A DNA stretch of 64,000 nt from Microcella alkaliphila (GTDB lineage Bacteria; Actinomycetota; Actinomycetes; Actinomycetales; Microbacteriaceae): contig NZ_SGXT01000015.1 in NCBI RefSeq assembly GCF_004216855.1, positions 1 through 64,000 on the forward strand, read 5' to 3'. This document shows, one piece after another, positions 9,723-64,000 of this stretch. Position numbers and translations under genes: made by a program. Each line of letters begins with the position of its first letter. The first letter of the stretch is position 1. The notes under the pieces are model-generated. The model ran no database searches. It was given only the letters and a program-made list of their open reading frames with translations, and had not been told where the DNA came from.

Positions 9723-9820
9723 TTATGCCGTGGTCGCGCTCTCACCCCCGTTTGGGGGGCGCGGAGGCGCGACAATGGTGACGGCCGTTCGTCACCGGCG
9801 GAGCGCCGAGCAGGGAGCGG

Positions 9821-10774: not shown

Positions 10775-10842
10775 GCGGCGAGTCTATTGCGGGACTCGGC
10801 GGAGCCGCCCCGCGCTCGTGAGTGACGTTTTTCGCCGGCGCG

Positions 10843-10933: not shown

Positions 10934-10958
10934 GCTCGGGCGGGGTCGCGGTGGTTGG

Positions 10959-12587: not shown

Positions 12588-12589
12588 CG

Positions 12590-47395: not shown

Positions 47396-47399
47396 GGCT

Positions 47400-48731: not shown

Positions 48732-48885
48732 GGTCGCCCCTTCGTTAGGTCTGATCAGTCATCATATAGATCGGATGTTTTTGGGGCAAGACTTCGGAAT
48801 TCCGCGTTCTTTCCCCTACGATCGGGGATCAGACTTCGGATGTTCGCACATCCGTGACAGTGAACACCAGACGAAAGGTGCGCAG
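48732..48885. promoter_or_regulatory. Divergent L-fucose promoter region with CGGATGT dyad
   Basis: The 154-nt gap between fucD and the FAH gene holds CGGATGT-N4-ACATCCG (48837-48854, 7-bp arms) and a second CGGATGTTTTT at about 48771-48781. Both are probable sites for the FadR-type regulator encoded at 44454. RBS AAAGGTG stands before the FAH ATG. A related CGGATGTTTCC lies in the importer leader (about 62346-62356, minus strand). Confidence 0.55.
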
Positions 48886-49737
48886 ATGCGACTGGCACGA
48901 CTCGGACCACCGGGGCACGAAGTGCCGGTTGTTCTCGACGGCGACGAGGCCCGCGACCTGCGCTCGCTCACCGCAGATATCGATGCTGCCTTTCTCGCCA
49001 CCGGGCTCGACGCCGTGCGCGCCGCACTCGACGCGAACGAGCTACCCATTCTCGCCTCGCACGGCGTTCGCGTCGGGGCGCCGATCGCGCGGCCGGGTGC
49101 GGTCGTGTGTGTCGGGATGAACTACGCCGCCCACGCGGCCGAATCGGGAAGTGCGCCCCCCACCCAGCCGGTCATCTTCCTCAAGCACCCCAACACGGTG
49201 GTGGGCCCCAATGACGACTTTCCCCTCGCCGCGCACGCCCACAAAATGGACTGGGAGGTTGAGCTCGCCATCGTGATCGGGCGCACCGTCTGGAACCTCA
49301 GCTCACGTGAAGAAGCCATGGCCTGCGTGGCCGGCGCCACCATCGCCGACGACCTCTCAGAGCGCACCTGGCAGCTCGAGGTCTCGGGCGGCCAGTGGTC
49401 GAAAGGCAAGTGCGCGCCCCACTCGACGCCGCTCGGGCCCGTGCTCGTCACCGTGGACGAACTCGACCTGGGCAACCTGCGCCTGACCAGCCGCGTCAAC
49501 GGCGAAACGCGACAGGACTCGTCGACCGCTGACCTCATCTTCGACGTGGCTACGGTCGTGCACGACCTCAGCCGCTACATGCGCCTCGACCCGGGCGACC
49601 TGATTCTCACCGGCACGCCCGAAGGGGTCGCGTTGTCGGGTCGCTTCCCGTACCTCACCGACGGCGACGTCGTCGAAATCGAGATCGACGGCATCGGCGT
49701 TCAACGCCACCGCGTCGTCGCGGAGGCATCAGCATGA
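48886..49737 (+). CDS. 2,4-diketo-3-deoxy-L-fuconate hydrolase (FAH family)
   Basis: 283 residues from the ATG at 48886 (RBS AAAGGTG). FAH fold: VCVGMNYAAHAAES with the catalytic His region, PVIFLKHPNTVVGPNDD, MDWEVELAIVIG (metal Glu), TGTPEGVALS. This family cleaves C-C bonds of 2,4-diketo acids. In the L-fucose route it would split 2,4-diketo-3-deoxy-L-fuconate to pyruvate and L-lactate. Coupled to the SDR gene (ATGA). Confidence 0.9.
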   Translation: MRLARLGPPGHEVPVVLDGDEARDLRSLTADIDAAFLATGLDAVRAALDANELPILASHGVRVGAPIARPGAVVCVGMNYAAHAAESGSAPPTQPVIFLKHPNTVVGPNDDFPLAAHAHKMDWEVELAIVIGRTVWNLSSREEAMACVAGATIADDLSERTWQLEVSGGQWSKGKCAPHSTPLGPVLVTVDELDLGNLRLTSRVNGETRQDSSTADLIFDVATVVHDLSRYMRLDPGDLILTGTPEGVALSGRFPYLTDGDVVEIEIDGIGVQRHRVVAEASA

Positions 49738-50480
49738 GCGAGTTCGCCGGGCTCGTCGCGCTCGTCACCGGCGGGGGCAGCGGCATCGGCGCCGCCGTCG
49801 CGGACGAACTCGCTGACCGTGGCGCGCGCGTCGCCGTGCTCGATCTGACACCGGGCGACAAGCACACGGGCGTGGTCTGCGACATCTCTGACGACGCATC
49901 CGTGCGCACCGCCATCCACCGCGTCGTCGATCGGCTGGGCCGCATCGACATCGTGATCAACAACGCGGGAATCGGGGCGACCGGAGCAATTGACGGCAAC
50001 GATGATGACGAGTGGCACCGCGTGTGGGATGTCAACGTGGTCGGAATCGCCCGCGTTACGCGGGCAGCCCTGCCGTACCTGCGCCAATCGCCTGCCGCTG
50101 CCGTCGTGAACACGTCATCGATCGCCGCGACCGCCGGCCTGCCGCAGCGCGCACTGTACTCGGCGACGAAGGGGGCGGTGCTCTCGCTCACCCGCGCGAT
50201 GGCCGCCGACCACCTGCCCGAGGGAATTCGCGTCAACGCCGTCTGCCCCGGCACCGCCGACACCCCGTGGGTGCAGCGGCTGCTCGACAACGCGGACGAC
50301 CCTGCCGCCGAGCGTGCGCAGCTCGAGGCTCGCCAGCCGCACGGCCGCCTCGTGACCGCCGAGGAGATCGCGTACGCCGTTGCTTCGCTGGCCAGCCCGC
50401 GCGCCACCTCCACCACCGGCACAAGCTTCGCTGTCGACGGAGGGATGCAGGAGCTGCGGCTGCGCAAGCCACAGGCGTAG
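49734..50480 (+). CDS. 2-keto-3-deoxy-L-fuconate dehydrogenase (SDR family)
   Basis: 248 residues. Classical SDR: nucleotide loop TGGGSGIGAAVAD, NNAG motif INNAGIGATG, serine in NTSSIAATAG, catalytic YSATKGAV (Tyr-x3-Lys), and PGTADTPWV. Role inferred from position: oxidation of 2-keto-3-deoxy-L-fuconate at C4 with NAD, giving the 2,4-diketo acid that the preceding FAH hydrolase cleaves. The ATG overlaps the FAH stop. Confidence 0.88.
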   Translation: MSEFAGLVALVTGGGSGIGAAVADELADRGARVAVLDLTPGDKHTGVVCDISDDASVRTAIHRVVDRLGRIDIVINNAGIGATGAIDGNDDDEWHRVWDVNVVGIARVTRAALPYLRQSPAAAVVNTSSIAATAGLPQRALYSATKGAVLSLTRAMAADHLPEGIRVNAVCPGTADTPWVQRLLDNADDPAAERAQLEARQPHGRLVTAEEIAYAVASLASPRATSTTGTSFAVDGGMQELRLRKPQA

Positions 50481-50608: not shown

Positions 50609-51574
50609 GTGACCGTTGCCCCCCAGAGTCAGCCCCGTCCGGGAGACGTGCTCGTCGTTGGGTCGATAACCGCTGATGTGACAACTTTTTCGAGCAGGCT
50701 CCCCCAGCCCGGAGAAACATTCCTCGGCGACGCGTTCACGCTCGTCCTGGGCGGCAAGGGAGCCAACCAGGCCATCGCGGCAGGACGGGCCGGGGCCCGG
50801 TCACACATGGTCGGATGCGTGGGAGACGACCTGTTTCGGGATCTGGTTAGCGACGGGTTGCGGGATGCGGGCGTCGGCATGACGCAGGTGCGCGAGGTTC
50901 CGGGGCAGACCGGCGTCGCGCACATCCGCGTCGATGCGAGCGGAGAAAACGACATCGTCATGGTGCCGCTCGCCAACGCTGCCCTCAGCGTCGAACACAT
51001 CGATCAGGCCTTCGAAGAGCTCGGCCCGAACACCGCGGTCATGCTCACCCAGCTCGAGATTCCGTTCTCGCTGACGATGCACGCGATCCGACGAGCCCAC
51101 GAACGCTCCATCATGGTGTTGCTCGACCCCGCGCCGGCGCACGAGCTCGACGACTCGATCTGGCCGCTCGTCGACATGGTGCTGCCGAATGAGACCGAGG
51201 CGACCCTGCTGACGGGCGTTTCCGTCACCTCGCGCGACACCGCGGTGGAGGCGGGGCGATGGTTCGTATCGCGCGGCGTCAGTGCCGCGCTCATCACCCT
51301 CGCCGGGGCGGGAAGCGTGCTCGTCACGGGTGACTCGGTCGTCGACTACCCCGCGATTGCTGTGACCGTCGAGGACACCACCGCCGCCGGCGATGCCTTC
51401 GCGGGTCACCTGGCAGCCTCGCTGGCAGCCGGGATTGACCGCGACGAGGCCATCCGCCGGGCGAGCGCCGCCGGCGCCCTCGCGGTCACCAAGCGCGGCG
51501 CCTCGCCGAGCCTGCCTACTGCGGATGACGTCGACGCCCTCCTCGCCTCCACCACCCAGAAAGACGGTGCCTAA
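50609..51574 (+). CDS. rbsK: Ribokinase
   Basis: 321 residues from the GTG at 50609. PfkB family: VLVVGSITADVTTF, GGKGANQAIAAGRAGA, and the catalytic DTTAAGDAFAG. The anion-hole sequence is AAGD instead of GAGD. It phosphorylates ribose at O5, or a related pentose. Next gene is the ribose pyranase RbsD, starting in the stop codon (TAATG). Separated by 128 nt from the fucose genes and controlled by its own promoter. Confidence 0.92.
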   Translation: MTVAPQSQPRPGDVLVVGSITADVTTFSSRLPQPGETFLGDAFTLVLGGKGANQAIAAGRAGARSHMVGCVGDDLFRDLVSDGLRDAGVGMTQVREVPGQTGVAHIRVDASGENDIVMVPLANAALSVEHIDQAFEELGPNTAVMLTQLEIPFSLTMHAIRRAHERSIMVLLDPAPAHELDDSIWPLVDMVLPNETEATLLTGVSVTSRDTAVEAGRWFVSRGVSAALITLAGAGSVLVTGDSVVDYPAIAVTVEDTTAAGDAFAGHLAASLAAGIDRDEAIRRASAAGALAVTKRGASPSLPTADDVDALLASTTQKDGA

Positions 51575-51978
51575 TGCGACGCAGTACGACCACGATCAAC
51601 CCCCAATTGAGCCGCATCATCTCTGAACTCGGTCACTACGACGAAGTTTTCGTGACCGACGCGGGTCTGCCGATTCCCCCCGGAGCCGAACGGGTCGATC
51701 TGGCCTATCGCAAGGGCGAGCCGGCGTTTCTCGACGTTCTCGACACCCTGCTCAATGAGGTCGTCATCGAGGGCGCCGTCATGCCGGCCGAAGTGGCCGA
51801 GGCGAGCCCCCACATGTTGCAGGCGGTGCGCGAACGCCTTGCGCCGCTCGGCATCGAGGTCGAGCTGATTCCGCACGTAGATTACAAGGCGCGCTCGCAG
51901 CACGCACGCGCCTTCGTTCGCTCGGGCGAATACACGTCGTACGCCAATGTCGCCCTCATCATGGGAGTCGACTACTAG
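51574..51978 (+). CDS. rbsD: D-ribose pyranase
   Basis: 134 residues. RbsD fold: ISELGHYDEVFVTDAGLPIP near the N-terminus with the active-site His/Asp set, and C-terminal RSGEYTSYANVALIMGV. It converts beta-D-ribopyranose to the furanose used by ribokinase. Overlaps rbsK by one base. GntR regulator follows 2 nt later. Confidence 0.93.
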   Translation: MRRSTTTINPQLSRIISELGHYDEVFVTDAGLPIPPGAERVDLAYRKGEPAFLDVLDTLLNEVVIEGAVMPAEVAEASPHMLQAVRERLAPLGIEVELIPHVDYKARSQHARAFVRSGEYTSYANVALIMGVDY

Positions 51979-51980
51979 CC

Positions 51981-52799
51981 ATGAGCACCGAGGGTGCGGT
52001 GCGGCGCGGGCGCGCGCGGGCTCACCTGTCTGCCGGGCGGATCGACAAGGGCTCAGCATTGCCCATGTACGACCAGCTCGAGCGCATTATTCGCGCGGCC
52101 ATCGCAGACGGAATCCTCAAGCCCGGCGAACTGTTGCCCGGGGAACTGCACCTCTGTGAGCTCTACGGAGTCTCGCGCACGGTCGTGCGGCAGGCGTTGG
52201 CGCAGCTCGAAAACGCGCGCGTCATCGTTCGCGTGAAGGGCAAAGGCACCTTTGTCGCACCGCAAAAGACAACGGAGACCCTGGCCGGGCGCCTCGCGGG
52301 ACTGTTCGAGGAGGTCGCATCACGCAACGGGCACGTGCGCTCGACCGTGCTGCGGCTCGAACGAGAGCCAGCGTCAGAGTTTGTGGCCGAACAGCTCGAC
52401 CTCGCAGTCGGCACGCCCGTCGTCGTGCTCGAGCGGCTGCGGTTTGTCGACGACGAACGGTGGTCACTCTCGACGACCTGGATGCCCGAGGCGATCGGAC
52501 GACACGTGTTCGGCGTCGACCTCACGAACAGCTCGCTGTACGCGTTGCTGGAGTCACGTGGGGTCAAGGCCGAGACCGGAATCCGGTCGATCGAGGCGGC
52601 ACTGACGGATGCGCGGGAGGGCCAACTGCTCGGAATCGGACCGGGCAAGCCGGTACTGCAACTGCGCAGCCGCACCTTCGATGCTCACCGGCGCCCAGTC
52701 GAATACTTTGAAGCGCTGCACCGCGGTGACCGCAGCCGATTCGAGTTTCACCTCGAGGCGAGCACCTCCCGCGATCGCCCGGTGTTCATCACGCAGTAG
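51981..52799 (+). CDS. HutC/GntR-family regulator (UTRA domain)
   Basis: 272 residues. Winged helix LKPGELLPGELHLCELYGVSRTVVRQALAQLENARVI (the recognition helix region), then a UTRA effector domain (VLERLRFVDDERWSLSTTWMPEAIG, VLQLRSRTFD). UTRA regulators bind sugar phosphates or amino acids. It is in the rbsKD transcript, and a 16-bp palindrome lies 22 nt after its stop, just before the next operon. It probably represses its own and the neighbouring operon. Confidence 0.92.
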   Translation: MSTEGAVRRGRARAHLSAGRIDKGSALPMYDQLERIIRAAIADGILKPGELLPGELHLCELYGVSRTVVRQALAQLENARVIVRVKGKGTFVAPQKTTETLAGRLAGLFEEVASRNGHVRSTVLRLEREPASEFVAEQLDLAVGTPVVVLERLRFVDDERWSLSTTWMPEAIGRHVFGVDLTNSSLYALLESRGVKAETGIRSIEAALTDAREGQLLGIGPGKPVLQLRSRTFDAHRRPVEYFEALHRGDRSRFEFHLEASTSRDRPVFITQ

Positions 52800-52821
52800 A
52801 GGGCAGAAATCAGTGGCGTCA

Positions 52822-52837
52822 ACCTGTAATTACAGGT
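52822..52837. promoter_or_regulatory. Perfect 16-bp operator for the GntR regulator
   Basis: ACCTGTAATTACAGGT is identical to its reverse complement. It lies 48 nt before the cupin-PGI gene and 22 nt after the HutC-type regulator. Palindromes of this size are the usual sites for HutC/GntR dimers. Confidence 0.75.
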
Positions 52838-52885
52838 AGGATTGGGCTCGTCCAGATTCAGCCCGCTGACCCCTGAGGAGACGCC

Positions 52886-53467
52886 GTGCAGTCCTACGCA
52901 GCGACCCCGATCGCCCCGTTCGCTATTCAGTTCGACGCCGCCGCTGCGACCCTTTCTCCCCCCGGGCCCACCCTGGAACGTCGTATGAGCGACCTCGAAG
53001 GCCTCTTTGCCGATCGCGACGCTTGGCAGAAGGCTGTCGACGGCGACAACCCCGTCGTCTACCGCGTGCAGTCGTCGCCGGTGCCCGAGATCGATCGGGA
53101 ATTGCCACAGTCGATCACCACCATCGAGCCGGGCACGACCGGCGGTGAATTGTGGATGACGAAAGGCCACCAGCACCCTAACTACCAGGGCGAGATCTAC
53201 CTCGCCTTGCACGGCACCGGGGGGCTCTTGATGTTCGACGGCGACCGCGTCGAATGGGTCACCATGGCTCCCGGCACCATCGGCTACATCCCGCCGGGCT
53301 GGGCGCACCGCTCCATCAACATCGGCGATGAGCCCTACTCGATGCTCGCAGTCTACCCGGGCGGGGCAGGACACGACTACAACTGGGTGCTCGAGCACGG
53401 CATGGGCAATCGCGTCTACAAGACTCCCAACGGCTTCGAGCTGCGCCCCTACGGAGGGCTCTCATGA
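52886..53467 (+). CDS. Cupin-type phosphoglucose isomerase family protein
   Basis: 193 residues from the GTG at 52886, with GAGGAG upstream. Matches the archaeal-type cupin phosphoglucose isomerase family: metal motif TKGHQHPNYQGEIYLALHG (H95, H97, E103) and the second motif YIPPGWAHRSIN (H141). In archaea these enzymes isomerise glucose-6- and fructose-6-phosphate; here it is the first gene of a sugar operon, so the natural substrate may be another phosphosugar. Overlaps the FGGY kinase start (ATGA). Confidence 0.88.
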   Translation: MQSYAATPIAPFAIQFDAAAATLSPPGPTLERRMSDLEGLFADRDAWQKAVDGDNPVVYRVQSSPVPEIDRELPQSITTIEPGTTGGELWMTKGHQHPNYQGEIYLALHGTGGLLMFDGDRVEWVTMAPGTIGYIPPGWAHRSINIGDEPYSMLAVYPGGAGHDYNWVLEHGMGNRVYKTPNGFELRPYGGLS

Positions 53468-54969
53468 TCATCGCCCACGACCTCGGCACCACCGGCAACA
53501 AGGCATCGCTGCACGACGAAACCGGCCGACTGTTGTCGGCCGTCACCGTCTCGTACCCCGTCGACTTTCGCGACGGCGGCATCGCCGAACAAAACCCCCG
53601 CGACTGGGAAAACGCCGTCATTGAGGCCACCCGAACGCTGCTGGAACGCACCCAGACCGACCGCAACCGCGTCACCGGCATGGTCCTCAGCGGCCAGATG
53701 ATGGGCGCCGTTCTGCTCGACGAGCACTACGAACCCGTGCGCCCGGCCATCATCTGGGCCGACACGCGTGCCCACGCGCAGACCGCACAACTCGCGGAAC
53801 GCCTGGGCGAATCAGAGGCCTACGAGCTGTTGGGGCACCGGGTGAACCCCACATACTCCCTCGCCAAAGTGATGTGGGTGCGCGACAACGAGCCCGACGT
53901 CTTCGACCGCGTGCGCTGGTTCTGCGTCGCCAAAGACTTCCTTGTGCACCGACTGACCGGTCGCCTCGTGACCGAGCCGAGCGACGCATCCGCCACCAAC
54001 GCCTTCGACCTGCATGCGGGGACCTGGTCGCACGAGGCCATCGACGCTGCCGGCCTCGATGCATCGATCTTTCCCGAGGTCGTGCCGTCGACCGAGGTGG
54101 TCGGCACGCTCACCGACCGGGTTGCCGCTGCAACCGGCTTGAACGCGAGCACCCGCGTCGTCATGGGAGGAGGCGACGGGCCGATCGCCGCTGTGGGGGC
54201 CGGAGTTGTCGCCCCCGAAGACGGTGCCTACGTGTGCATGGGCACCTCGTCGTGGATCTCGTTTGCCTCGGCCACCTCGGCCCTCGACCCCAGCCGTCGC
54301 ACCTTCACCTTCACCCACGTCGTGCCCGACATGTTCGTGCCGACCGCGACGATGCAGGCGGCCGGCGCATCCGTCAGCTGGATCAACGAAGTGCTTAGCG
54401 AGACCGCCGACGGCTCGACGCTTGCGCGACTGGTCGCCGACGCCGACACCGACGAAGCGGCGACAGGCGGGCTGTACTTTCTGCCCTACCTGCTGGGCGA
54501 GCGCTCCCCCCGCTGGGATCCGGATGCGCGGGGCGCGTTCGTGGGCATCGGCCGGCACCACGGCCGCCCCCACCTCGTGCGCGCGGTGCTCGAGGGGGTC
54601 GCCTTCAACCTCGCGATCGGCATTCAAGCCTTCCGGGATGCGGGCGTCACTATTGACCGCATCGATGCGGTCGGCGGCGGCGCGGCAAGCGACACGTGGT
54701 TACAGATCATGGCGGACGTCTGGGGCGTCACCGTGCGGCGGCGCTCCGTCGTCGAAGAGGCCAACAGCCTCGGCGCCGCCGTCGTTGGGGCCGTCGGCCT
54801 CGGCCTCGTCGACGACTTCTCGGCCGCGCGCGACCTGTCTCAGGTGACCGCAGAATTCACCCCCGAACCGAGCAGACGCGGCGCCTACCGCGACCGCCTC
54901 GCGCGCTTCGACGAGGCGTACACCGCACTGGCGCCGTGGTTCGCTGTCTCGGGCAGCGGCGCCTCCTGA
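53464..54969 (+). CDS. FGGY-family carbohydrate kinase
   Basis: 501 residues, starting inside the cPGI stop. ATP-binding loops AHDLGTTGNKASL and GGGAASDTWLQ, catalytic Asp D238 in GGGDGPIAAVG, and the xylulokinase-like WADTRAHAQ and GTSSWISFAS. Close to the xylulokinase/gluconate kinase branch but not a clean match, so the ketose or sugar acid it phosphorylates is uncertain. The next dehydrogenase gene starts in its stop codon. Confidence 0.88.
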   Translation: MIIAHDLGTTGNKASLHDETGRLLSAVTVSYPVDFRDGGIAEQNPRDWENAVIEATRTLLERTQTDRNRVTGMVLSGQMMGAVLLDEHYEPVRPAIIWADTRAHAQTAQLAERLGESEAYELLGHRVNPTYSLAKVMWVRDNEPDVFDRVRWFCVAKDFLVHRLTGRLVTEPSDASATNAFDLHAGTWSHEAIDAAGLDASIFPEVVPSTEVVGTLTDRVAAATGLNASTRVVMGGGDGPIAAVGAGVVAPEDGAYVCMGTSSWISFASATSALDPSRRTFTFTHVVPDMFVPTATMQAAGASVSWINEVLSETADGSTLARLVADADTDEAATGGLYFLPYLLGERSPRWDPDARGAFVGIGRHHGRPHLVRAVLEGVAFNLAIGIQAFRDAGVTIDRIDAVGGGAASDTWLQIMADVWGVTVRRRSVVEEANSLGAAVVGAVGLGLVDDFSAARDLSQVTAEFTPEPSRRGAYRDRLARFDEAYTALAPWFAVSGSGAS

Positions 54970-55991
54970 TGGCGACGATACTGGCGACCAGCAGATCATT
55001 CGGAGACGGCGACCTCGATCTGGCGCGCGAGCTCGAAGACGCCGGGCACCGCATCCTGCGCGGTCCGAGTGATCACGACTTCGCGTTCGTCGCGCGCGAA
55101 CTCGCCGACGCTGACGCGTGGGTCGCGGGCACGGGCCCAGTAACCGCCGAACATCTGGACGCCGCCCCGAACCTGCGCGTTGTCGCCCGCTACGGGGTCG
55201 GCTTCGAAGCAGTCGACCTCGAGGCCGCTGCCGTACGAGGTGTCTGGGTCACCAACACCCCCGGCGCGAATTCATCGGCTGTCGCTGAACACACCATTGC
55301 GCTCATGTTGACCGCCCTCCGTGGCGTCGTCGACGGCGACCGTCGGGTGCGCAAGGGTGATTGGTCGACCTTTCGTGGCCGCGAGCTCGGTGGGCTCACC
55401 GTGGGCATCGTCGGGTTCGGCCGCATCGGGCGGGGAGTCGCGCAGCGCCTCTCCGGATTCGGCTCGCGCATCCTCGCTGCCGACCCGATGATCACGCCGC
55501 AGCAGCTCAGCGATCTCGGTGTCGAGCCCAGCACGCTGCAGCATATGGCGAGCCAGTGCGATGTCATCACCCTGCACGCACCCGGAGGCGACACGCTTAT
55601 CACCGCGCAGTGGCTCGACACAATCAAGCGTTCGTGCGTGATCGTGAACACGGCGCGCTCCGACCTTGTCGACGAAGCCGCGCTCGCCGCGGCCCTCGAG
55701 CTGGGCCGAATTGCCGCGTACGCCGCCGACACGCTGCACGGCGACACAGGTGGCCTACCGTCACCGTTGCTCACGCCGCGGCTGTCGCCGCGGGTGACCA
55801 TCACGCCGCACCTCGGCGCGCAAACGGTTGAAGCGGTCGACGGCATGGGTTCCCGCGCCGTCGAAAACGTGCTCGCGGTGCTCGCGGGCGACACACCGCA
55901 CGACGCCGTGAACACTCCCGACCCGGATGCTCGTGCCGCGCGCGACCGGGCCGCGGCACGTCTCGACACCACCCTCAAGGACACACCGTGA
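54969..55991 (+). CDS. D-isomer-specific 2-hydroxyacid dehydrogenase
   Basis: 340 residues from the ATG at 54969 (TGATG overlap). Phosphoglycerate-dehydrogenase-like fold: VVARYGVGFEAVD, AEHTIALMLTALRG, NAD loop VGIVGFGRIGRGVAQRL, catalytic Arg in NTARSDLVDE and the Glu/His pair, the latter in ITPHLGAQT. It probably oxidises or reduces a 2-hydroxy sugar acid (phosphate) with NAD. Overlaps the aldolase start by 4 nt. Confidence 0.88.
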   Translation: MATILATSRSFGDGDLDLARELEDAGHRILRGPSDHDFAFVARELADADAWVAGTGPVTAEHLDAAPNLRVVARYGVGFEAVDLEAAAVRGVWVTNTPGANSSAVAEHTIALMLTALRGVVDGDRRVRKGDWSTFRGRELGGLTVGIVGFGRIGRGVAQRLSGFGSRILAADPMITPQQLSDLGVEPSTLQHMASQCDVITLHAPGGDTLITAQWLDTIKRSCVIVNTARSDLVDEAALAAALELGRIAAYAADTLHGDTGGLPSPLLTPRLSPRVTITPHLGAQTVEAVDGMGSRAVENVLAVLAGDTPHDAVNTPDPDARAARDRAAARLDTTLKDTP

Positions 55992-56644
55992 GCGACTCGA
56001 CACCTTCGCCCGCCCTCGACAGCGTTCACACGACGGGTGTTTTCGCGGTCGTGCGCGCCCCCGACCCGGATGCCGCCCTCCACGCAGCCGACGCACTGAT
56101 TCGTGGCGGGGTAACGGGAATCGAAGTGACCTACTCGACGCCCGAAGCCGCATCCGTGATCGCCGAGTTGCATCGCCGCCACGGCGATGCAGCGCTGATC
56201 GGCGCGGGCACCGTCACCACTGCCGCCCTGGCCGACGAGTCAGCCGCCGCCGGGGCACGCTTTCTCGTCTCGCCCGGCACGCTGCCCGACGTCGCGCGCG
56301 CCATGCTCGACACCGGCCTCATCACAATGACGGGCGCCCTTACCCCCACCGAGCTCATGAGCGCGCTGGCACTGGGCGTTCACGTCGTCAAAGTGTTCCC
56401 CGCATCCTTCGGAGGTGTTCCCCATATTAAGGCTCTCCGCGAGCCCTTCCCGGAGGCGGCCCTGATGCCGACCGGGGGAGTAACGGCAGAAAACCTCGGG
56501 CAGTTCTTCGCCGCCGGAGTGATCGCCGTCGGCGCGGGAGGCGACCTCATCGCCCGCGACGCCCTCGCGGAGCGCGACTGGGACCGCATCGAAACGCGCG
56601 CGCGGGAATACGCCGCAGCGCTCGCCAGCACGAGGGTTGCATGA
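55988..56644 (+). CDS. eda: KDPG/KHG-type aldolase
   Basis: 218 residues from the GTG at 55988 (GTGA overlap). EDA barrel: GIEVTYSTPEA (catalytic Glu), LIGAGTVTTAA, FLVSPGTLP, Schiff-base K135 in HVVKVFPAS, and LMPTGGV. It cleaves 2-keto-3-deoxy sugar acids (phosphates) to pyruvate and an aldehyde. Its place after a 2-hydroxyacid dehydrogenase suggests a keto-deoxy intermediate in this operon. Confidence 0.9.
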   Translation: MSDSTPSPALDSVHTTGVFAVVRAPDPDAALHAADALIRGGVTGIEVTYSTPEAASVIAELHRRHGDAALIGAGTVTTAALADESAAAGARFLVSPGTLPDVARAMLDTGLITMTGALTPTELMSALALGVHVVKVFPASFGGVPHIKALREPFPEAALMPTGGVTAENLGQFFAAGVIAVGAGGDLIARDALAERDWDRIETRAREYAAALASTRVA

Positions 56645-57552
56645 GCGGACGGATGGGCTTCGTGGGGGTCACTACCTCGGGATCGTCGATCATGCAGATT
56701 TTTCCCGTGTGGGCGACCGAGCTCGGGTTGCCGACGAGCCAGCTCGACGGCCACGACGTCGCGATCGGCGCCTCATCGGCCGAGTACCGCGCGCTGGTCA
56801 CGACGATCAGGGACGACCCCGAGCACCGCGGCGCGCTCGTCACCACGCACAAGATGGCTCTCTTCGCCGCGGCTCACGACCTCTTCGACGAGCTCGACGA
56901 CTTCGCGCTGGCGTGCGGCGAAGTCTCGAGCATCGCCAAACGCGATGGACGCCTGCTCGGCCACGCCAAAGACCCGCTCACGGTCGGGCTCGCGCTCGAC
57001 GAGTTCGTGGCGGCCGACGCCTTCGTTTCGGAACGCGACGCGGTGATCCTCGGAGCCGGCGGCGCCGGTCTCGCGCTGTCGTGGCACCTGGCGCAGCGCA
57101 ACGACGTGCCGCGCCGCATCGTGGTTTCTGACACCGACCGCTCACGCCTCGACCACCTGGCCGACGTGCACGCCATCCTCGGCACGGATGCGGGGCTACT
57201 GCACCTCGTGGACGCCAGCGACGAATCGATGCGTACGCTGTTCGCGACGCTTGCTCACGGTAGCCTCGTAGTCAACGCATCCGGTCTCGGTAAAGACCGG
57301 CCGGGATCTCCGCTGCCCGACGACATCGACTTCCCCCCCTCGGCCGTCGTGTGGGAATTCAACTACCGCGGCAGTCTCGAATTTCTCGCTCACGCCCGCG
57401 ACCAAGCGGAACGAAACGGGCTGACGGTTGTTGACGGGTGGCGCTATTTCATCCACGGTTGGACCCAGGTGATCGGCGAGGTGTTCGAGGTAGACATGAC
57501 ACCCAAGACCGTCGAGCGACTCGCGCAGCTCGCGGAGCCGTTTCGGCGCTAA
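56641..57552 (+). CDS. Shikimate-dehydrogenase-like oxidoreductase
   Basis: 303 residues, ATGA-coupled to eda. The N-terminal substrate domain has VTTHK with K71 in place of the usual NVTxPxK, and GHAKDPLTVG, in which the Asp matches the shikimate catalytic Asp. The nucleotide loop is VILGAGGAGLALSW. Divergence at the substrate motif and its place in a sugar operon argue against a role in aromatic biosynthesis; a polyol or sugar acid is a likelier substrate. Confidence 0.82.
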   Translation: MSGRMGFVGVTTSGSSIMQIFPVWATELGLPTSQLDGHDVAIGASSAEYRALVTTIRDDPEHRGALVTTHKMALFAAAHDLFDELDDFALACGEVSSIAKRDGRLLGHAKDPLTVGLALDEFVAADAFVSERDAVILGAGGAGLALSWHLAQRNDVPRRIVVSDTDRSRLDHLADVHAILGTDAGLLHLVDASDESMRTLFATLAHGSLVVNASGLGKDRPGSPLPDDIDFPPSAVVWEFNYRGSLEFLAHARDQAERNGLTVVDGWRYFIHGWTQVIGEVFEVDMTPKTVERLAQLAEPFRR

Positions 57553-57585
57553 CCGCAGCCGCGGGCTCGAGTGAGGAGGCGGACG

Positions 57586-58542
57586 GTGGGAACCATACGC
57601 ACGGTACGGGGCGACATCGACGCGTCGACGCTTCGCGCGGTCAACACGCACGAGCACCTGTTCCAGGTCTCGCCCCTGCTACCAGCAGACGAGCTCACCG
57701 ACCTCGAACGCTCTCGCAGCGAAGCGGCCAGCCTGCGTGACAGCGGGTTCGCCAGCATGATTGACGCGACGCCGATCGGCCTGGGCAGAAACCCCGTCGG
57801 GCTGGCAGACATTAGCGGCTCAACCGGTCTCACGATCGTCGCGAGCACGGGCATGCACCGCGAGGCGCACTACGGTGACGACCACCCCCTGCGGCAGTGG
57901 AGTGTCGACCGTCGAGCCGCCGCGTTCGTTCGCGACATCGTCAGCGGAATGCCGATCTCAGATCCGGATGGCGCGCCCGCAGAGGAGGTTGAAGGCGAGC
58001 CCGTGCGCGCGGGCATCATCAAGACCGGCATCGGCTACTGGTCGATCAGTGCATTCGAGCGGATGACCTTGGAGGCGGCGGCCATCGCGCACGCGCAGAC
58101 CGGGGCCGCCATCATGGTGCACCTCGAGCACTGCACAGCCGGGCACGAAGTGCTCGACCTACTGAGCAGCCTTGGGGTCCTGCCGTCCCGCGTCATGCTA
58201 GCTCATGCCGACCGGCTCAACGACCCGGGGCACCACGTCGAACTGCTGGCTCGCGGCTGCACGCTCGGCTACGACGGTGCCGCCCGCTGGCGCGATCACA
58301 GCGACCACTCGCTCATCGAACTCACCGCCGCGGTGATCGAGCGGGGCGAAGACCGGATCGTGCTTGGCGGTGACGTTGCACGATCCTCGCGCTACGTCGC
58401 CTACGGTGGCATGCCGGGTCTCGCCTATCTCGGCGACCGGTACGTGCCACGACTGCGATACCGGCTAGGCAGCGACGCGGTGGAGCGGATGCTCACGGCG
58501 AACCCGCGACACCTGCTCAAGCTCATCGCACCCACCGCGTAG
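57586..58542 (+). CDS. Phosphotriesterase-family lactonase-like hydrolase
   Basis: 318 residues from the GTG at 57586, with AGGAGG 6 nt upstream. Binuclear-metal amidohydrolase: H22-x-H24 in NTHEHLF, carboxylated lysine K146 in IIKTGIGYW, H179 in MVHLEH, H207 in AHADR and D263 in LGGDVAR. COG1735 homologues in Listeria, Bacillus and Mycoplasma hydrolyse phosphorylated sugar lactones. The likely role is opening a sugar lactone (phosphate) made by a dehydrogenase in the same operon. Last gene before a strong terminator. Confidence 0.88.
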   Translation: MGTIRTVRGDIDASTLRAVNTHEHLFQVSPLLPADELTDLERSRSEAASLRDSGFASMIDATPIGLGRNPVGLADISGSTGLTIVASTGMHREAHYGDDHPLRQWSVDRRAAAFVRDIVSGMPISDPDGAPAEEVEGEPVRAGIIKTGIGYWSISAFERMTLEAAAIAHAQTGAAIMVHLEHCTAGHEVLDLLSSLGVLPSRVMLAHADRLNDPGHHVELLARGCTLGYDGAARWRDHSDHSLIELTAAVIERGEDRIVLGGDVARSSRYVAYGGMPGLAYLGDRYVPRLRYRLGSDAVERMLTANPRHLLKLIAPTA

Positions 58543-58550
58543 ACGCGAGG

Positions 58551-58578
58551 AAGCCCCCGGCCGAGTGGCCGGGGGCTT
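58551..58578. terminator. Strong bidirectional terminator
   Basis: AAGCCCCCGGCC-GAGT-GGCCGGGGGCTT: a perfect 12-bp stem with A and T flanks that can act for both the operon ending at 58542 and the convergent importer ending at 58610. Confidence 0.85.
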
Positions 58579-58609
58579 CCCGCGTTGTCACGCGAACGCG
58601 ACGGAGTTG

Positions 58610-59614
58610 TTACTGGTAAAGAACTGCAGCGATGTTCGGCTCGTCCATGTTGGTGGCGTCGTACCAGAATGAACCGGTGTCGGTGAACTCCGGGAGCGAC
58701 TCGCCATTGATCGCAGCAACAGCGTTCTCAACCACGGTGCGGCCGATGCCGATCGGGTCCTGCGTGATGGCGCCGGCCATCACACCGTTCCTGATCGCGT
58801 CAATCTGAGCGGCGCCCGAGTCAAATCCGACGACCGTGACCTGTCCGTTGGGCAGGCCGAGCTCGGTCACCGCGTTGACGATACCGATGGCTGAACCCTC
58901 GTTGGTGCCGTAAAGGCCAACCATGTCGGGGTACGCCGCGAGCATTGCCTTCGCGATGTCAGCCGAGCGCAGGTGGTCGCCGTCGCCGTACTGAATGTCG
59001 ACAATCTCAATACCGGGCCAGTTGGCCTCGATCTCGGTCACGAAGCCGTCGCGACGCTCGATACCGGTCGAGTTGATCTGGCTGTGCCCGACAATGCCGA
59101 CCTGTCCTTCTCCGCCGATGAGCTCTGCCATGTTCTGAGCTGCAATGGCGCCCGCTGCGACACCGTCAGTGGCGGCCAGGTTCTGGCCGTAGTCGCTCGC
59201 ACAGCCCGCGTCGAATTCGACGATCGGGATGTTCGCTTCGGCTGCTGCTTCGTACAGCGAAACGCAGGCCTCGGGGTCGAGAGCGGCGTAGCCGATCGCG
59301 TCGGGGGCACGGTCGATCGCAGCCTGGAACATCTGCAACTGAGCGTCGATTTCGGTTTCCGAAGCGGGGCCTTCGAACGTCACGTCGACGCCGAGCTCGG
59401 CCGCTGCCTCTTCGGCCCCCTGGCGAACTGCCTGCCAGAATTGGTGCTGGAAGCCCTTCGAAATCAGCGCGATCTGCAGGCGCTCGCCTTCGCTTTCACC
59501 GCCGCCGGCGCCGGCGCCGGGATCAGTGGGTGCGGCATCTCCGGCGCACCCTGCGAGCACAAGCGCCAGGGTGGCGGCGCTTGCAATAATCGCAGCACTC
59601 TTCCTAATCTTCAT
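58610..59614 (-). CDS. Ribose-type ABC transporter sugar-binding lipoprotein
   Basis: 334 residues from the ATG at 59614 (GAGGAG upstream). Lipoprotein signal ends LVLAGC. Periplasmic-binding-protein fold of the RbsB class: LISKGFQHQFWQAVRQGAEEAA, AIGYAALDPEACVSLYE, and VGFDSGAAQIDAIRNG. It binds a sugar and hands it to the permease encoded just upstream. Last gene of the importer operon, separated from the permease by 151 nt containing a hairpin. Confidence 0.92.
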   Translation of the reverse strand: MKIRKSAAIIASAATLALVLAGCAGDAAPTDPGAGAGGGESEGERLQIALISKGFQHQFWQAVRQGAEEAAAELGVDVTFEGPASETEIDAQLQMFQAAIDRAPDAIGYAALDPEACVSLYEAAAEANIPIVEFDAGCASDYGQNLAATDGVAAGAIAAQNMAELIGGEGQVGIVGHSQINSTGIERRDGFVTEIEANWPGIEIVDIQYGDGDHLRSADIAKAMLAAYPDMVGLYGTNEGSAIGIVNAVTELGLPNGQVTVVGFDSGAAQIDAIRNGVMAGAITQDPIGIGRTVVENAVAAINGESLPEFTDTGSFWYDATNMDEPNIAAVLYQ

Positions 59615-59719
59615 TGAAACTCCTCTAATTCGTTGCCGACAAGCGGCGTTTGGTGGTGCATTCTGTGCCTCTGGTGCTGTCCCTCTGGGTGCAGAGGGCT
59701 TGCCGGACGAATCCGACGA

Positions 59720-59749
59720 CGCGAGACGAACTGGCACAACCGTCTCGCG
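59720..59749 (-). terminator. Intercistronic hairpin before the binding-protein gene
   Basis: Perfect 9-bp stem CGCGAGACG/CGTCTCGCG with a 12-nt loop between permease and binding-protein genes. No T tract; it probably protects or processes the downstream message. Confidence 0.6.
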
Positions 59750-59765
59750 CGGGTCTGAGTTGGGG

Positions 59766-60785
59766 TTATAACCCCTTGCGATTTCGCAACGCGTCGGCAA
59801 ACACAGCGATCGCGATAACCACACCGACTACCACGTTCTGCCACTCCGTCTGAATTGACAGGATTCGCAGCCCGTTGATCAGCACGCTCATGATGAGCGC
59901 ACCAATCAGGGTGCCGACGATCGAGCCACGGCCACCCAAGAGCGACGTACCGCCGATGATGACCGCGGCGATGGCCTGAAGCTCGTAACCGACGCCGATC
60001 TGCGGTTGCGCGGAATCGAGTCGTGAGGCAATGATCACACCTGCGATGCCCGTGAACACACCAGATACCGTGTACACGATGACCTTCCATCGTCTGGTGT
60101 TGACACCGGATAGGCGCGTCGCTTCCTCGTTCGAGCCGATGGCGACGGTAAACCGACCGAACACCGTCTTCGCGAGCATGAAATAAGCGAGGGCCGCCAG
60201 CATGAACATGATCAGAACTGCGTTGGGTAACCCCGGAATCAGGTTGCCGAGCGCGATGTCCCTGAAGCCGGGAACGCCCGAGAAGTAGATCGGGCTGACT
60301 CCCGAAATCACGAGGGCGAGGCCCTGCGCGACCATCATCATCGCGAGTGTTGCAATGAAGGGTGGCAGATTCAAAAAGGCCACGTTGAGGCCGTTGACGA
60401 GGCCGATTAGGGCTCCCGTCGCGATCCCCGCTAACACGCCGACAACGAGTGGCATGCCGAAGTTGACCGCCACGATTCCCGTCATAACTGCAGACAGCGT
60501 CATTCCGGTGCCGAGGGAGAGGTCGATACCCCCGGTCGTGATGACGAAGGTCGTGCCGAGGGCCAGGATGCCGATCACCGCCGTGGCGAGCAGGATTCCC
60601 GAAAGGTTCGACCAAGTGAAGAATCGGTCACTCGCGATCGAGAAGAACAGCAACAAAACAACCAGGGTTCCGAACGCCAAACCTTGCTGTAGGCCCTTGC
60701 GCCAAAGATTAGCGTTGGATTTCTGCGGTGCCTGCTTGGGTTCGTCGCTCGGACTGGCCACTCGCGTGGTCTGGTCGGCAGTCAT
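59766..60785 (-). CDS. Ribose-type ABC transporter permease
   Basis: 339 residues with about 8-10 membrane segments. RbsC/AraH class: LSGILLATAVIGILALGTTFVITTGGIDLSLG is the family signature, followed by GLVNGLNVAFLNLPPFIATLAMM and RGSIVGTLIGALIMSVLINGLRIL. ATGA-coupled to the ATPase gene. It forms the membrane channel of the importer. Confidence 0.95.
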   Translation of the reverse strand: MTADQTTRVASPSDEPKQAPQKSNANLWRKGLQQGLAFGTLVVLLLFFSIASDRFFTWSNLSGILLATAVIGILALGTTFVITTGGIDLSLGTGMTLSAVMTGIVAVNFGMPLVVGVLAGIATGALIGLVNGLNVAFLNLPPFIATLAMMMVAQGLALVISGVSPIYFSGVPGFRDIALGNLIPGLPNAVLIMFMLAALAYFMLAKTVFGRFTVAIGSNEEATRLSGVNTRRWKVIVYTVSGVFTGIAGVIIASRLDSAQPQIGVGYELQAIAAVIIGGTSLLGGRGSIVGTLIGALIMSVLINGLRILSIQTEWQNVVVGVVIAIAVFADALRNRKGL

Positions 60786-62299
60786 GCCGCTCCCTTCGTA
60801 TCCGCGATCGCGTGCGTCGCGTATTCCATAATTTTTTCTTGGCTCGCCTCTTCGTTGGCGAGCGTGCCCGTCACGCGACCATTCGCCATCACGACGATGC
60901 GGTGTGCGAGGCGGAGGATTTCGGGCAGCTCGCTCGAGATCACGATGATCGACTTGCCTGCCTCAGCCAACTCGTGCAAGAGGCGGTAGATCTCCTCTTT
61001 CGCGCCGACGTCAATGCCTCGAGTGGGCTCATCGAAGATCAGAATTTCGCAGTCACGAGTCAGCCATTTGGCAATGACGACTTTTTGCTGGTTACCGCCC
61101 GACAGTAGCTTTACGAACTGCTCCGTCGACGGCGTCTTCGTGCCGAGGTCGTCCACATACTTGGTCGTGACCTCGCGCGCTTTGCCCTCCTGAACCACCC
61201 CGATCGGACCGGTGAAGTCGGGCAACGACGCGAGGATCGTGTTGAACGTCACACTCTGTTCGAGCATGAGACCAAACTGCTTCCGGTCTTCCGAGAGGTA
61301 GCCAATACCGTGCCGAACGCCATCGGAGGGCTGTCGAATCGCAACGGGCGCGCCGTTGACCTCGATCTTGCCGCTGGTGCGCGGGTCGGCGCCGATGATC
61401 GCACGGGCAGTCTCGGTGCGGCCCGCGCCCATCAGCCCCGCGAAACCCAGGATTTCACCGCGCCGCAGGTCGAACGACACGTCGCGCAACAGCGTGCGCG
61501 TCGATAAGCCAGTAACGCGAAGAACGATGTCGTCCGCGGAGTGCGCCGACGCAGTCGGGCGAGCGCTCGAGTCGACCTGCCTGCCCACCATCATCTCGAT
61601 GATCGTCGGCACATGGATCTCATCGCCTTCAAGGTCTCCGATGTGTTCCCCATCCCGCAAGACGGTGACGCGGTCGGCGAGCCTCTTTAACTCCTCCATG
61701 CGGTGCGAGATGTAGACGATGCCGGTGCCCCGCTCGCGCAGACTGTCGATCAGTCCGAACAGCGTCTCGACCTCGGCATCGGTCAGTGCACTCGTCGGCT
61801 CGTCCATGATCAACACGCGGGAGTTGAACGAGAGCGCTTTCGCGATTTCGACCATCTGCTGCTTCGCGACCGTCAGATCGCCCACGAGGTCTCGGGCGTT
61901 GAGGGCGATTCCGAGGTCATCGAGCAGCTGCTGGGCGTTCTCGTTGAGGCGCCGCTCGTCGAGCATGATGCCGCGACGAGGCTCTCGCCCGATGTAGATG
62001 TTCTGCGCGACCGTGAGGTCGGGCATGAGGTTCATCTCCTGGTGGATGATGCAGATACCCAGTTCTTGGGCCACGGCGGGCCCCGGGATCTCCACGTCGT
62101 TGCCATCCATGCGAATGGTTCCCTCGTCGCGCTGGTAGATCCCCGAGAGGATCTTCATCAGCGTTGACTTGCCCGCACCGTTCTCACCCACGAGAACGAT
62201 TACTTCTCCCGCGGACAGCCGGAACTGAACCTTATGGAGGGCGCGCACTCCGGGGAAGCTCTTGCTAATCCCCTCGACCTCGAGCAGTGCTGCCGTCAC
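60782..62299 (-). CDS. Ribose-type ABC transporter ATPase (two NBDs)
   Basis: 505 residues from the GTG at 62299, with GGGAGATGAT upstream. Two nucleotide-binding domains: the first with GENGAGKST and the second with LSGGNQQKV and IFDEPTRGIDVG. This tandem form is typical of RbsA, XylG and MglA. The 354-nt leader upstream is described separately. It powers import of a sugar, probably a pentose or deoxyhexose. Confidence 0.95.
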   Translation of the reverse strand: MTAALLEVEGISKSFPGVRALHKVQFRLSAGEVIVLVGENGAGKSTLMKILSGIYQRDEGTIRMDGNDVEIPGPAVAQELGICIIHQEMNLMPDLTVAQNIYIGREPRRGIMLDERRLNENAQQLLDDLGIALNARDLVGDLTVAKQQMVEIAKALSFNSRVLIMDEPTSALTDAEVETLFGLIDSLRERGTGIVYISHRMEELKRLADRVTVLRDGEHIGDLEGDEIHVPTIIEMMVGRQVDSSARPTASAHSADDIVLRVTGLSTRTLLRDVSFDLRRGEILGFAGLMGAGRTETARAIIGADPRTSGKIEVNGAPVAIRQPSDGVRHGIGYLSEDRKQFGLMLEQSVTFNTILASLPDFTGPIGVVQEGKAREVTTKYVDDLGTKTPSTEQFVKLLSGGNQQKVVIAKWLTRDCEILIFDEPTRGIDVGAKEEIYRLLHELAEAGKSIIVISSELPEILRLAHRIVVMANGRVTGTLANEEASQEKIMEYATHAIADTKGAA

Positions 62300-62653
62300 A
62301 TCATCTCCCACTTCATTGAAGGAACCGTGTTTCGTCGATAGCCGCCGGAAACATCCGACATATTCTGCGCACAACCCTGGCATCTATGCAAGTTGTTACT
62401 TAATGTAACTAAATGCCCGCTGGTCCGCATCCCTCGCGCATAACAAGACCGTAACCATGTGGCCCGATCGCGTGCATCCCGCGTAGATGCAGGAAAAACA
62501 GGGGTGAGGCAGGGGCAACGCCCCCGAATCGCAGCCGGACATCACTGCGGGTATCGCGCCGAGTACCCGTTGTGCACTCACCGCGCATACATCCGATCAC
62601 CAGGTGTGCGGAATGTTCTCCCGACTGTGACCGCCACCATCTATCGGCAAACA
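62300..62653 (-). promoter_or_regulatory. Importer leader with dyad, promoter-like boxes and CGGATGT
   Basis: No gene is seen in this 354-nt stretch. On the minus strand, GTTAC-N5-GTAAC (62395-62409) is a clear dyad. TTGCAT about 18 nt before CAGAAT gives weak -35/-10 boxes. GTCGGATGTTTCC (about 62345-62357) resembles the CGGATGT sites in the divergent fucose region. A GGGGC/GCCCC hairpin at 62512-62524 may end the isomerase transcript. Confidence 0.5.
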
Positions 62654-64000
62654 TCAGATGCTGGTCTCGCCACACAGGTGAACCTGAATACCCATTCCCG
62701 CGAACATCGCGGCCTTCGCCTCGAGGGCGCGATCAGCCGCATCCGCGCTCGGCGCGTAGGCGACCTGGATGTGATTCGACTTGTGACGGGCCATCAACTG
62801 GTCCCGAGTCACGCCGTGCAACACAGCGTGCATGATCGGCCACTGGTGGTCGGTCGCATGCAGGCGCCGCTGAGTCTCCTCACTCGGCAGCTCGACGACG
62901 TGAGCCCGGCCCACGTCGGCGTGCAGAGCGTCGTCCATGACGAACACGCGCGACCACACGATCTCACCGGGCTTCGAAATGCCCGACAGCGTGCCGCCGC
63001 CCTTCGGGAAGAACATGGGCACCTGGCGCATCGAATACGACTTGTCATAGCCACCGTTGTGGCTGGCAGGCACCGAACCTGAGATCTCGAACACCCACAC
63101 GAAGTCGTCGCCGAAGTCCTCACCCCAGCGAATGTCGTGCAGCGTCGTCGCCGGGTCGAATCCCATCGCCGTCCAAATGCGGTTCGTGACGAGCGCATCC
63201 ACCGCAACTCCCTCATCCACCTCGTTGAAGTGAGGCAGCGGTGCACCCTTCCAGAGCTCGCGCTTTCCGTCGCGCGACGACACCGGCGGACGCGCCACAT
63301 TGTTTAGGAGCCCCTCGGCAAGGTCGGAGGCGGCGCACTGATCCTTGAGCCCCTGCTGGTACTGGATGCCGATCGCGTCAACGCCGTAGTCGTCGCCGAT
63401 GCGGAGGGCCGCGATGTACATACGCATCTGGCTCAGCACCTGTGCGCGGGTGAGCTCGGTGGCGTCTTCCGTGCCCCAGTGGAACGTCAGCCCGGCGTTC
63501 TCGAGCCACTGCAGAGCCTGCTCGGCCTCAGCCGCCGACACCTGATCCATCTCCGCCAGGAGTGCGCTCTGCGACAGGCGCTCCTTGTAGATGCCCGTGG
63601 CGTTGAGCATCTCGTCATCGATGATGGCGTTGTACATGCCCATGCAGCCCTCATCGAAGACACCGATCACGGCCTTTTCGTCGCGCAACTGATGCGCGAG
63701 AGCGGTGCCGAGCGCGACTTCGTCGGAGTCGGCCAGCTGGCCGAGCTCGCGCACGTGCGAGGTGTCGTGCTCGATGCGGCCGGTCTCGAGCCACTCGTCG
63801 AGCTTCGCCAGCGCCCACTCATCGGTGAGGTCCTGGCTCCACAGCACCGAGTGCTCGATGTTCGCCTTCGTGAGGCTCGCCGTGAGGTTCAGCAGACCGA
63901 CGAGGCCAGGGAAACGGCCCTCCCAGTTCGCGATGAGCAGGATCGGCCCCTCGTGGGCGCGCAGCCCCGCGAGAACGTGGTGGCTGTACTGCCACACGGC
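62654..64000 (-). CDS. L-fucose/L-arabinose isomerase superfamily protein (5' end outside window)
   Basis: Partial: the frame is open to the window edge, so at least 448 residues are seen and the true start lies further. The N-terminal part (LLIANWEGRFPGLVGLLNLTASL), FDEGCMGMYNAIIDD and the C-terminal region with HATDHQWPIMHAVLHG fit the FucI/AraA superfamily of Mn-dependent aldose-ketose isomerases. It lies upstream of the RbsABC-type importer, so it may isomerise the imported sugar. The exact substrate is unknown. Confidence 0.75.
   Translation of the reverse strand, partial: AVWQYSHHVLAGLRAHEGPILLIANWEGRFPGLVGLLNLTASLTKANIEHSVLWSQDLTDEWALAKLDEWLETGRIEHDTSHVRELGQLADSDEVALGTALAHQLRDEKAVIGVFDEGCMGMYNAIIDDEMLNATGIYKERLSQSALLAEMDQVSAAEAEQALQWLENAGLTFHWGTEDATELTRAQVLSQMRMYIAALRIGDDYGVDAIGIQYQQGLKDQCAASDLAEGLLNNVARPPVSSRDGKRELWKGAPLPHFNEVDEGVAVDALVTNRIWTAMGFDPATTLHDIRWGEDFGDDFVWVFEISGSVPASHNGGYDKSYSMRQVPMFFPKGGGTLSGISKPGEIVWSRVFVMDDALHADVGRAHVVELPSEETQRRLHATDHQWPIMHAVLHGVTRDQLMARHKSNHIQVAYAPSADAADRALEAKAAMFAGMGIQVHLCGETSI

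Follow-up and report, generated by a model that had tools for sequence, protein, structure and literature searches.

Organisation of the locus

A compact sugar-catabolic gene cluster of Microcella alkaliphila lies within the window analysed here, the first 64,000 nucleotides of contig NZ_SGXT01000015.1, which belongs to a genome (G000) of 2.69 Mb in 20 contigs that is rated 100% complete. Nine co-directional genes occupy positions 50609-58542 and encode, in order, a ribokinase-like protein, RbsD, a GntR/UTRA regulator, a cupin-type phosphoglucose isomerase (PGI) family protein (cPGI), an FGGY kinase, a D-2-hydroxyacid dehydrogenase (2HADH), an aldolase of the 2-keto-3-deoxy-6-phosphogluconate (KDPG) type (EDA; 55988-56644), a shikimate dehydrogenase (SDH)-like protein given the working name AroEL (56641-57552) and a phosphotriesterase (PTE)-family hydrolase. 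The last six form a tightly packed core operon (52886-58542), in which four of the five junctions are overlaps of 1-4 bases and the remaining gap is 18 bases. A perfect 16-bp palindrome, ACCTGTAATTACAGGT, ends 48 bases before cPGI, and an initial annotation of the region, made from the sequence alone, began exactly at its first base, 52822. All the genes named in that annotation are present: cPGI, FGGY kinase, 2HADH, KDPG aldolase, SDH-like protein, PTE, importer and FucI-like protein (Table 1).

Conservation of the gene set across bacteria

Conservation was assessed in the loci of the best 80 of 94 AroEL relatives confirmed in one scan, numbered L; by record title, 32 of the 80 loci are from Microbacterium, and the locus counts are therefore not independent. 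The nearest named relatives of the window AroEL among these 80 are from Agrococcus (L008 and L009, 70-72% identity). Partners were counted within 11 kb of AroEL in the 56 well-flanked loci, which extend 8 kb or more to either side of the gene. AroEL is accompanied by cPGI, 2HADH and a lactonase in 51 of the 56, the full set being absent from L052, L060, L072, L079 and L086, and the FGGY kinase is found in 50, the ABC ATPase in 53, EDA in 22 and the ribokinase in 13. An L-fuconate-dehydratase-like gene lies close by in 30 and belongs to a neighbouring L-fucose set. The gene set is also present in many other actinobacteria, in one Dormibacterota locus (L080) and in one spirochaete locus (L065).

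On plasmids of Pararhizobium, Sinorhizobium, Lichenicola and Marinovum the order is cPGI, EDA, AroEL, 2HADH, a metallo-beta-lactamase-fold (MBL) hydrolase and an RpiR-type regulator. Rhizobium leguminosarum keeps this order minus EDA, and Shinella zoogloeoides carries a rearranged version. No fusions between core genes were found among the AroEL loci examined; an apparent 2HADH-AroEL fusion in L081 was dropped, as it spans an ambiguous base. In a small-genome actinobacterium (L070 6294-6632), a small protein judged by eye to be EthD-like is encoded between PTE and the kinase.

Operator sites and regulators

No further site with up to three mismatches to the palindrome was found elsewhere in the window, where 0.01 are expected, or in the window genome. 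Of 38 loci from relatives, 31 have a match to its core with up to two mismatches in the 220 bases before cPGI, the exceptions being L037, L068, L070, L071, L073, L074 and L076. Across all loci, 116 sites match one of three related patterns with up to three mismatches, compared with one site in one mononucleotide shuffle. For a single pattern, the cumulative numbers of sites at 0, 1, 2 and 3 mismatches are 4, 23, 56 and 100, against means of 0, 0, 0.17 and 1.8 and maxima of 0, 0, 4 and 44 for 60 scrambled palindromes of equal composition.

In Microbacterium, 25 loci carry the operator before the orthologue of the ABC ATPase, possibly in common with a divergent gene, and these sites place the orthologous importer in the regulon of the relatives. 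The operator is also found before FGGY in divergent FGGY/cPGI pairs, before a short-chain dehydrogenase/reductase (SDR) gene in two loci, and before the ribokinase in four, with one mismatch in L033 and as a degenerate site with three mismatches in L009, L014 and L092. The window ribokinase has only a five-mismatch site. In L056, operators precede FGGY, EDA/GntR and cPGI. The GntR protein encoded next to the palindrome at 52822 presumably controls the operon through it.

The regulators of the alphaproteobacterial modules are HexR-like, with scores of 252.7-283.6 bits in all five scanned and 38-42% identity to Escherichia coli YebK/HexR. In four of four records no other protein matches HexR as well as the module copy, the runner-up scoring 22 to 196 bits. 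The serine of the G.G.S and IS.TG-type motifs is kept in all five by visual inspection, the matching of motifs to residues being the analyst's own. Characterised HexR proteins and the related regulator RccR are reported to respond to KDPG (PMC5489143). The HexR-like regulator and the EDA likeness suggest, but do not prove, that the intermediate is KDPG or a closely related compound.

Protein families of the core operon

AroEL scores 51 bits against the curated AroE model (cut-off 413) and 37.5 bits against TIGR00507 (cut-off 200.2), in both cases under the threshold. Its predicted structure (mean pLDDT 95.4) has the shikimate dehydrogenase superfamily fold, with Foldseek query TM-scores of 0.66-0.77 for its 50 best PDB matches. 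The best of these are shikimate and quinate dehydrogenases and a 5-ketofructose reductase (7cok), which also has weak sequence similarity to AroEL (roughly 20% identity in the structural match). S15, T68, H70, K71, D111, K218, R243 and most of a DGW.YF.HGW motif are invariant in 37 aligned sequences. The VTTHK motif, which the initial annotation had singled out as an oddity of this protein, contains T68, H70 and K71 and is thus shared with its relatives. A seeded alignment to E. coli AroE places D111 on the catalytic aspartate and S15 on one of two carboxylate-binding serines, and a profile alignment by hhalign (probability 97%, 19% identity) also pairs D111 with that aspartate.

Among the other core proteins, cPGI is a cupin PGI family member that matches 4luk (phmmer, 1.9e-42) and whose cupin metal-ligand motifs (GH.H, E and HRS) are conserved in 74 aligned rows. 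The FGGY kinase passes the curated XylB score (Table 1). The 2HADH retains the arginine of NTAR and the histidine of TPH and is nearest to phosphoglycerate dehydrogenases, its matches also including a probable 2-ketogluconate reductase (9m0t).

The nearest PDB relative of the window PTE is 3pnz (4.3e-32), known as Lmo2620, and the protein scores 103.7 bits against the phospho-furanose lactonase model NF045706, under the cut-off of 630. In the alphaproteobacterial plasmid sets, a hydrolase of the MBL type, distantly like the L-ascorbate-6-phosphate lactonase UlaG, stands in place of PTE; the L088 protein scores 42 bits against the UlaG model (cut-off 306), and the alphaproteobacterial MBL matches 3bv6 at 6e-10 and UlaG (2wyl) at 3.4e-4. 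The hybrid locus L093 has a PTE gene in an otherwise HexR-type arrangement, and a Microbacterium locus, L042, has both hydrolases. Known lactonases of the Lmo2620 type and UlaG hydrolyse phosphorylated sugar lactones, and the lactone-opening step is assigned to PTE and MBL because both families contain phospho-lactonases. Two further arrangements were seen: L042 has two AroEL genes (7300-13500), one beside PTE and the other beside MBL, and in L097 (16440-17783) an MBL lactonase-like domain is in-frame with a low-molecular-weight protein tyrosine phosphatase domain.

The KDPG-type aldolase and the missing dehydratase

The operon copy is the only EDA-family gene in the window genome and matches the KDPG aldolase 1wa3 at 5.9e-36. 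The best match in this genome to the Edd dehydratase family reaches 259 bits, far under the cut-off of 708, no dehydratase gene lies inside the set in the window operon, and Edd over the cut-off is absent from 12 of 14 other genomes searched. Co-occurrence was tallied from tables for 199 Microbacteriaceae genomes, numbered G. An EDA homologue is present in 27 of the 28 genomes with AroEL above 200 bits (the exception is G246), compared with 85 of the 171 others, and a close EDA lies within 1 kb of AroEL in all 12 genomes whose AroEL has at least 57% identity. Two genomes that lack AroEL, G155 and G027, nevertheless possess a close EDA (58-63%). In four genomes of Microbacterium (G062-G065) the local cluster has no EDA, and a 63-64% identical copy is found elsewhere in the genome; in G062, G064 and G065 the contig of this copy is equal in length to that of the cluster and is hence probably the same one, with the copy about 30-46 kb away. 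In a separate set of 26 genomes, five of which had also been in the set first searched for EDA, some EDA match was found in 25, one over the cut-off in 21, and Edd over the cut-off in 10. Judged by this co-occurrence, EDA is a member of the gene set.

A dependence of local EDA on Edd was also considered, and the pattern was too weak for a claim. Loci without local EDA include Edd-positive (L037, L057, L060 and L071) and Edd-negative ones (L040 and L077), and local EDA is present in L055, L056, L058 and L062 despite Edd-positive genomes.

A proposed phosphorylated oxidative pathway

Based on family membership, co-occurrence and displacement, from which all the reactions, their order and the sugar are inferred, the operon may degrade a ketohexose-type sugar by a phosphorylated oxidative route that resembles the Entner-Doudoroff pathway without its dehydratase, a reading given a probability of about 0.4. 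The FGGY kinase would convert the sugar to a ketose-6-phosphate and cPGI would isomerise this to an aldose-6-phosphate. AroEL would oxidise the aldose-6-phosphate at C1 to a lactone-6-phosphate, which PTE, or MBL in the alphaproteobacterial version, would open to an aldonate-6-phosphate. Oxidation at C2 by 2HADH would yield a 2-keto acid, and EDA would cleave it to a C3 keto acid and glyceraldehyde-3-phosphate. In shikimate, the oxidised hydroxyl is in a 1,3 relationship to the ring carbon that bears the acid, and C1 of an aldopyranose-6-phosphate would stand in the same relationship to C5 with its phosphate arm. Given this matching geometry, an AroE-type site could oxidise C1 of an aldose-6-phosphate to the lactone that the next enzyme opens.

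The initial annotation had likewise proposed a single non-classical pathway in which a kinase, a lactone-opening enzyme and a KDPG-type aldolase take part. Conservation, shared operators and EDA co-occurrence support this proposal, with a core narrowed to six genes. It had placed isomerisation, by the cupin or a FucI/AraA-like enzyme, before phosphorylation. Of the two, cPGI is the likelier isomerase, and the kinase therefore probably acts before it, reversing the order.

The most economical product of 2HADH would be KDPG. Since KDPG would then be reached by two oxidations and no dehydration, the starting sugar would lack O-3, as in a 3-deoxy sugar such as 3-deoxyfructose, which matches KDPG in its D-erythro configuration at C4 and C5. 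It is conceivable, if doubtful, that the gene set constitutes a widespread route of the Entner-Doudoroff type that needs no dehydratase and consumes 3-deoxyhexuloses, for instance 3-deoxyfructose derived from Maillard-type 3-deoxyglucosone; two oxidations would lead to KDPG, and the SDH-fold enzyme would be a sugar-phosphate 1-dehydrogenase. Polyol-type dehydrogenases adjoin several alphaproteobacterial sets, which suggests that an alditol or dicarbonyl form could also enter the route.

Several observations weigh against the proposed pathway. EDA stands in the local cluster of a minority of the well-flanked loci, and the window EDA shares only 33% identity with E. coli Eda (41% for L088) and lacks the arginine that the latter has at the EVTLRT position. 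Four small-genome, probably freshwater, actinobacteria (L068, L070, L074 and L076) have the set and no EDA over the cut-off, the best matches being 145 and 141 bits in two and trivial in another, with no match at all in the last, in assemblies that may be incomplete. All five HexR-like regulators score under the HexR cut-off of 296, and in the seeded alignment K71 of AroEL is one column off the catalytic lysine of AroE, the lysines being left unpaired by hhalign. In the Chloroflexi loci (L078 and L082-L086) AroEL is accompanied by no core partner other than PTE, if by any, Paraburkholderia L096 has no recognised 2HADH at its place, which counts against a strict core, and the orphan AroEL genes of L072, L079 and L087 keep the invariant residues with no recognised sugar-cluster neighbours, as judged by eye from open reading frames for L079 and L087. 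In Marinovum, a divergent unit next to the set contains an IlvD/EDD-family gene. The transporter operon of the window genome has no operator, so that the importer, which the initial annotation had included in the pathway, is linked to it by the sites in Microbacterium relatives and not by those of the window genome. Finally, the use of 3-deoxy sugars as carbon sources is not known to be common.

Alternative explanations

The same steps might instead act on a rare hexose that is not a deoxy sugar, for example D-allose or D-allulose, with the aldolase splitting a 2-keto-hexonate-6-phosphate into hydroxypyruvate and glyceraldehyde-3-phosphate. The scheme would be indifferent to stereochemistry at C2 or C3, the best NCBIfam match of the sugar-binding protein is the D-allose binding protein (113.7 bits, below the cut-off of 335), and the operator precedes ribokinase orthologues in some relatives. 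The closeness of 2HADH to phosphoglycerate dehydrogenases also fits, as such an enzyme may reduce hydroxypyruvate as well. KDPG-type aldolases, however, take pyruvate as the donor, and the HexR-like regulators indicate KDPG. Hydroxypyruvate isomerase, tartronate semialdehyde reductase and glycerate kinase are unannotated in six annotated plasmid loci, the gene tables of which are incomplete; L097 has two annotated generic sugar phosphate isomerase/epimerases. This explanation is considered rather unlikely. Quite improbable is an accessory Entner-Doudoroff or 2-ketogluconate route, in which 2HADH would work as a reductase to form 6-phosphogluconate that is dehydrated elsewhere to KDPG. EDA and the HexR-like regulator would suit it, and 9m0t is among the 2HADH matches, but the absence of Edd over the cut-off from the window genome and from most of the others searched speaks against it and the lactonase and cPGI would be left unexplained.

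AroEL may also act at C3 or C5, or as a reductase, with a different order of steps. The fold and weak sequence similarity shared with 7cok favour this possibility, as does the report that an SDH relative reduces 5-ketofructose, another putative SDH being inactive in the same study (PMC7954740). Without a C1 dehydrogenase, however, the lactonase would have no substrate, and in the L070 operon AroEL and 2HADH are the only dehydrogenases, with no other nearer than an SDR encoded on the opposite strand. Action at another carbon is accordingly rated fairly unlikely. It is very improbable indeed that the locus is a loose neighbourhood of unrelated sugar genes with no single pathway: an L-fucose set, a xylose set and a FucI-like gene are all close by, but the same set recurs in many actinobacteria, alphaproteobacterial plasmids, the Dormibacterota locus and the spirochaete locus, and a common operator extends across much of the actinobacterial part.

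Neighbouring genes

An L-fucose-type oxidation set lies upstream of the operon (45594-50480) and comprises a fuconolactonase-like protein, an aldo-keto reductase, an enolase-superfamily dehydratase, an FAH hydrolase and an SDR. At the other end, a unit of the FucI-like gene and a second FGGY kinase (G000:C4 64318-65790) runs past the window end, and a xylose set lies beyond it. The FucI-like/FGGY pair is also present in Agrococcus L008, L009 and L021. The in-window 447 residues of the FucI-like protein score 25.7 bits against Fucose_iso_C, under the cut-off of 29.3, and have no PDB sequence relative at E 0.01. The FucI-like isomerase, a pathway step in the initial annotation, and its neighbouring kinase were set aside: a FucI homologue occurs in 8 of 80 loci, with limited flanks, and the operon of the FucI-like gene has no operator in the window genome. 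XylB-like kinase and xylose-isomerase-like genes were recognised by eye (G000:C4 68677-71501, equivalent to L091 8677-11501), adjoined by ROK- and LacI-like regulators and preceded by a possible aldo-keto reductase fragment.

Table 1. Features of the operon and its surroundings, with positions in the window
Feature	Position	Strand	Basis
PfkB kinase, ribokinase-like (accessory)	50609-51574	+	TIGR02152, 280 bits, under cut-off 299.65
RbsD-type sugar pyranase (accessory)	51574-51978	+	NF008761, 131 bits, cut-off 93
GntR/UTRA regulator, presumed owner of operator	51981-52799	+	PF00392 and PF07702; adjoins operator
Perfect palindromic operator-like site, 16 bp	52822-52837		Sequence search
cPGI, proposed ketose-6-phosphate/aldose-6-phosphate isomerase	52886-53467	+	PF06560, 82.3 bits, cut-off 20.7
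FGGY kinase, XylB-like, proposed ketose kinase	53464-54969	+	TIGR01312, 411.4 bits, cut-off 380.25
2HADH, proposed aldonate-phosphate 2-dehydrogenase	54969-55991	+	Start is the likely one
KDPG/KHG-type aldolase (EDA)	55988-56644	+	TIGR01182, 185.8 bits, cut-off 156
AroEL, shikimate dehydrogenase fold, proposed sugar-phosphate 1-dehydrogenase	56641-57552	+	Sequence and predicted structure
PTE-family hydrolase, proposed phospho-aldonolactonase	57571-58542	+	PF02126, 118.7 bits
Perfect 14-bp inverted repeat, terminator-like, between convergent operons	58549-58580		Read by eye
Sugar ABC binding protein	58610-59614	-	PF13407, 176.6 bits
Sugar ABC permease	59766-60785	-	Family profile search
Sugar ABC ATPase	60782-62302	-	Family profile search
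FucI-like protein, 545 aa	62654 to ~64291 (G000:C4), past window end		Fucose_iso_C, weak match

Significance and comparison with known systems

If the proposal is correct, members of the Microbacteriaceae would share a further catabolic route with other actinobacteria and with rhizobia, the shikimate dehydrogenase fold would gain an activity new to it, and proteins annotated as shikimate dehydrogenase, glucose-6-phosphate isomerase or phosphoglycerate dehydrogenase in such operons would need to be reassigned. The 3-deoxy version, if true, would explain the recycling of sugar breakdown products by soil and plant bacteria. No description of the cluster or of bacterial 3-deoxyfructose catabolism was found among the papers listed by searches of an open-licence full-text library, judged by title or the start of the abstract.

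The cluster is best called a member of phosphorylated oxidative sugar catabolism and not a separate kind. Like the Entner-Doudoroff pathway (Zwf, Pgl, Edd and Eda), the route proposed here would oxidise an aldose-6-phosphate at C1, open the lactone and end with a KDPG-type aldolase, and the alphaproteobacterial version has a HexR-type regulator. Unlike that pathway, the operon has no Edd, a 2-hydroxyacid dehydrogenase standing where the dehydratase does, and unrelated proteins are proposed for C1 oxidation and lactone opening; neither glucose-6-phosphate dehydrogenase nor 6-phosphogluconolactonase is among the operon's families, no genome search having been aimed at them. The 2-ketogluconate (kgu) route, which employs a PfkB kinase and ends in 6-phosphogluconate, similarly has a 2HADH acting beside sugar-acid phosphates, whereas cPGI, AroEL and the lactonase are absent from it. 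PTE and MBL resemble the phospho-furanose lactonases of the 3pnz group and UlaG in belonging to families with members that hydrolyse phospho-sugar lactones, but both fall far below the respective cut-offs given above. The 5-ketofructose reductase of the SDH family is, as is proposed for AroEL, an AroE-fold protein that acts on a sugar; it differs from AroEL in its low sequence identity and in its substrate, which is not phosphorylated.

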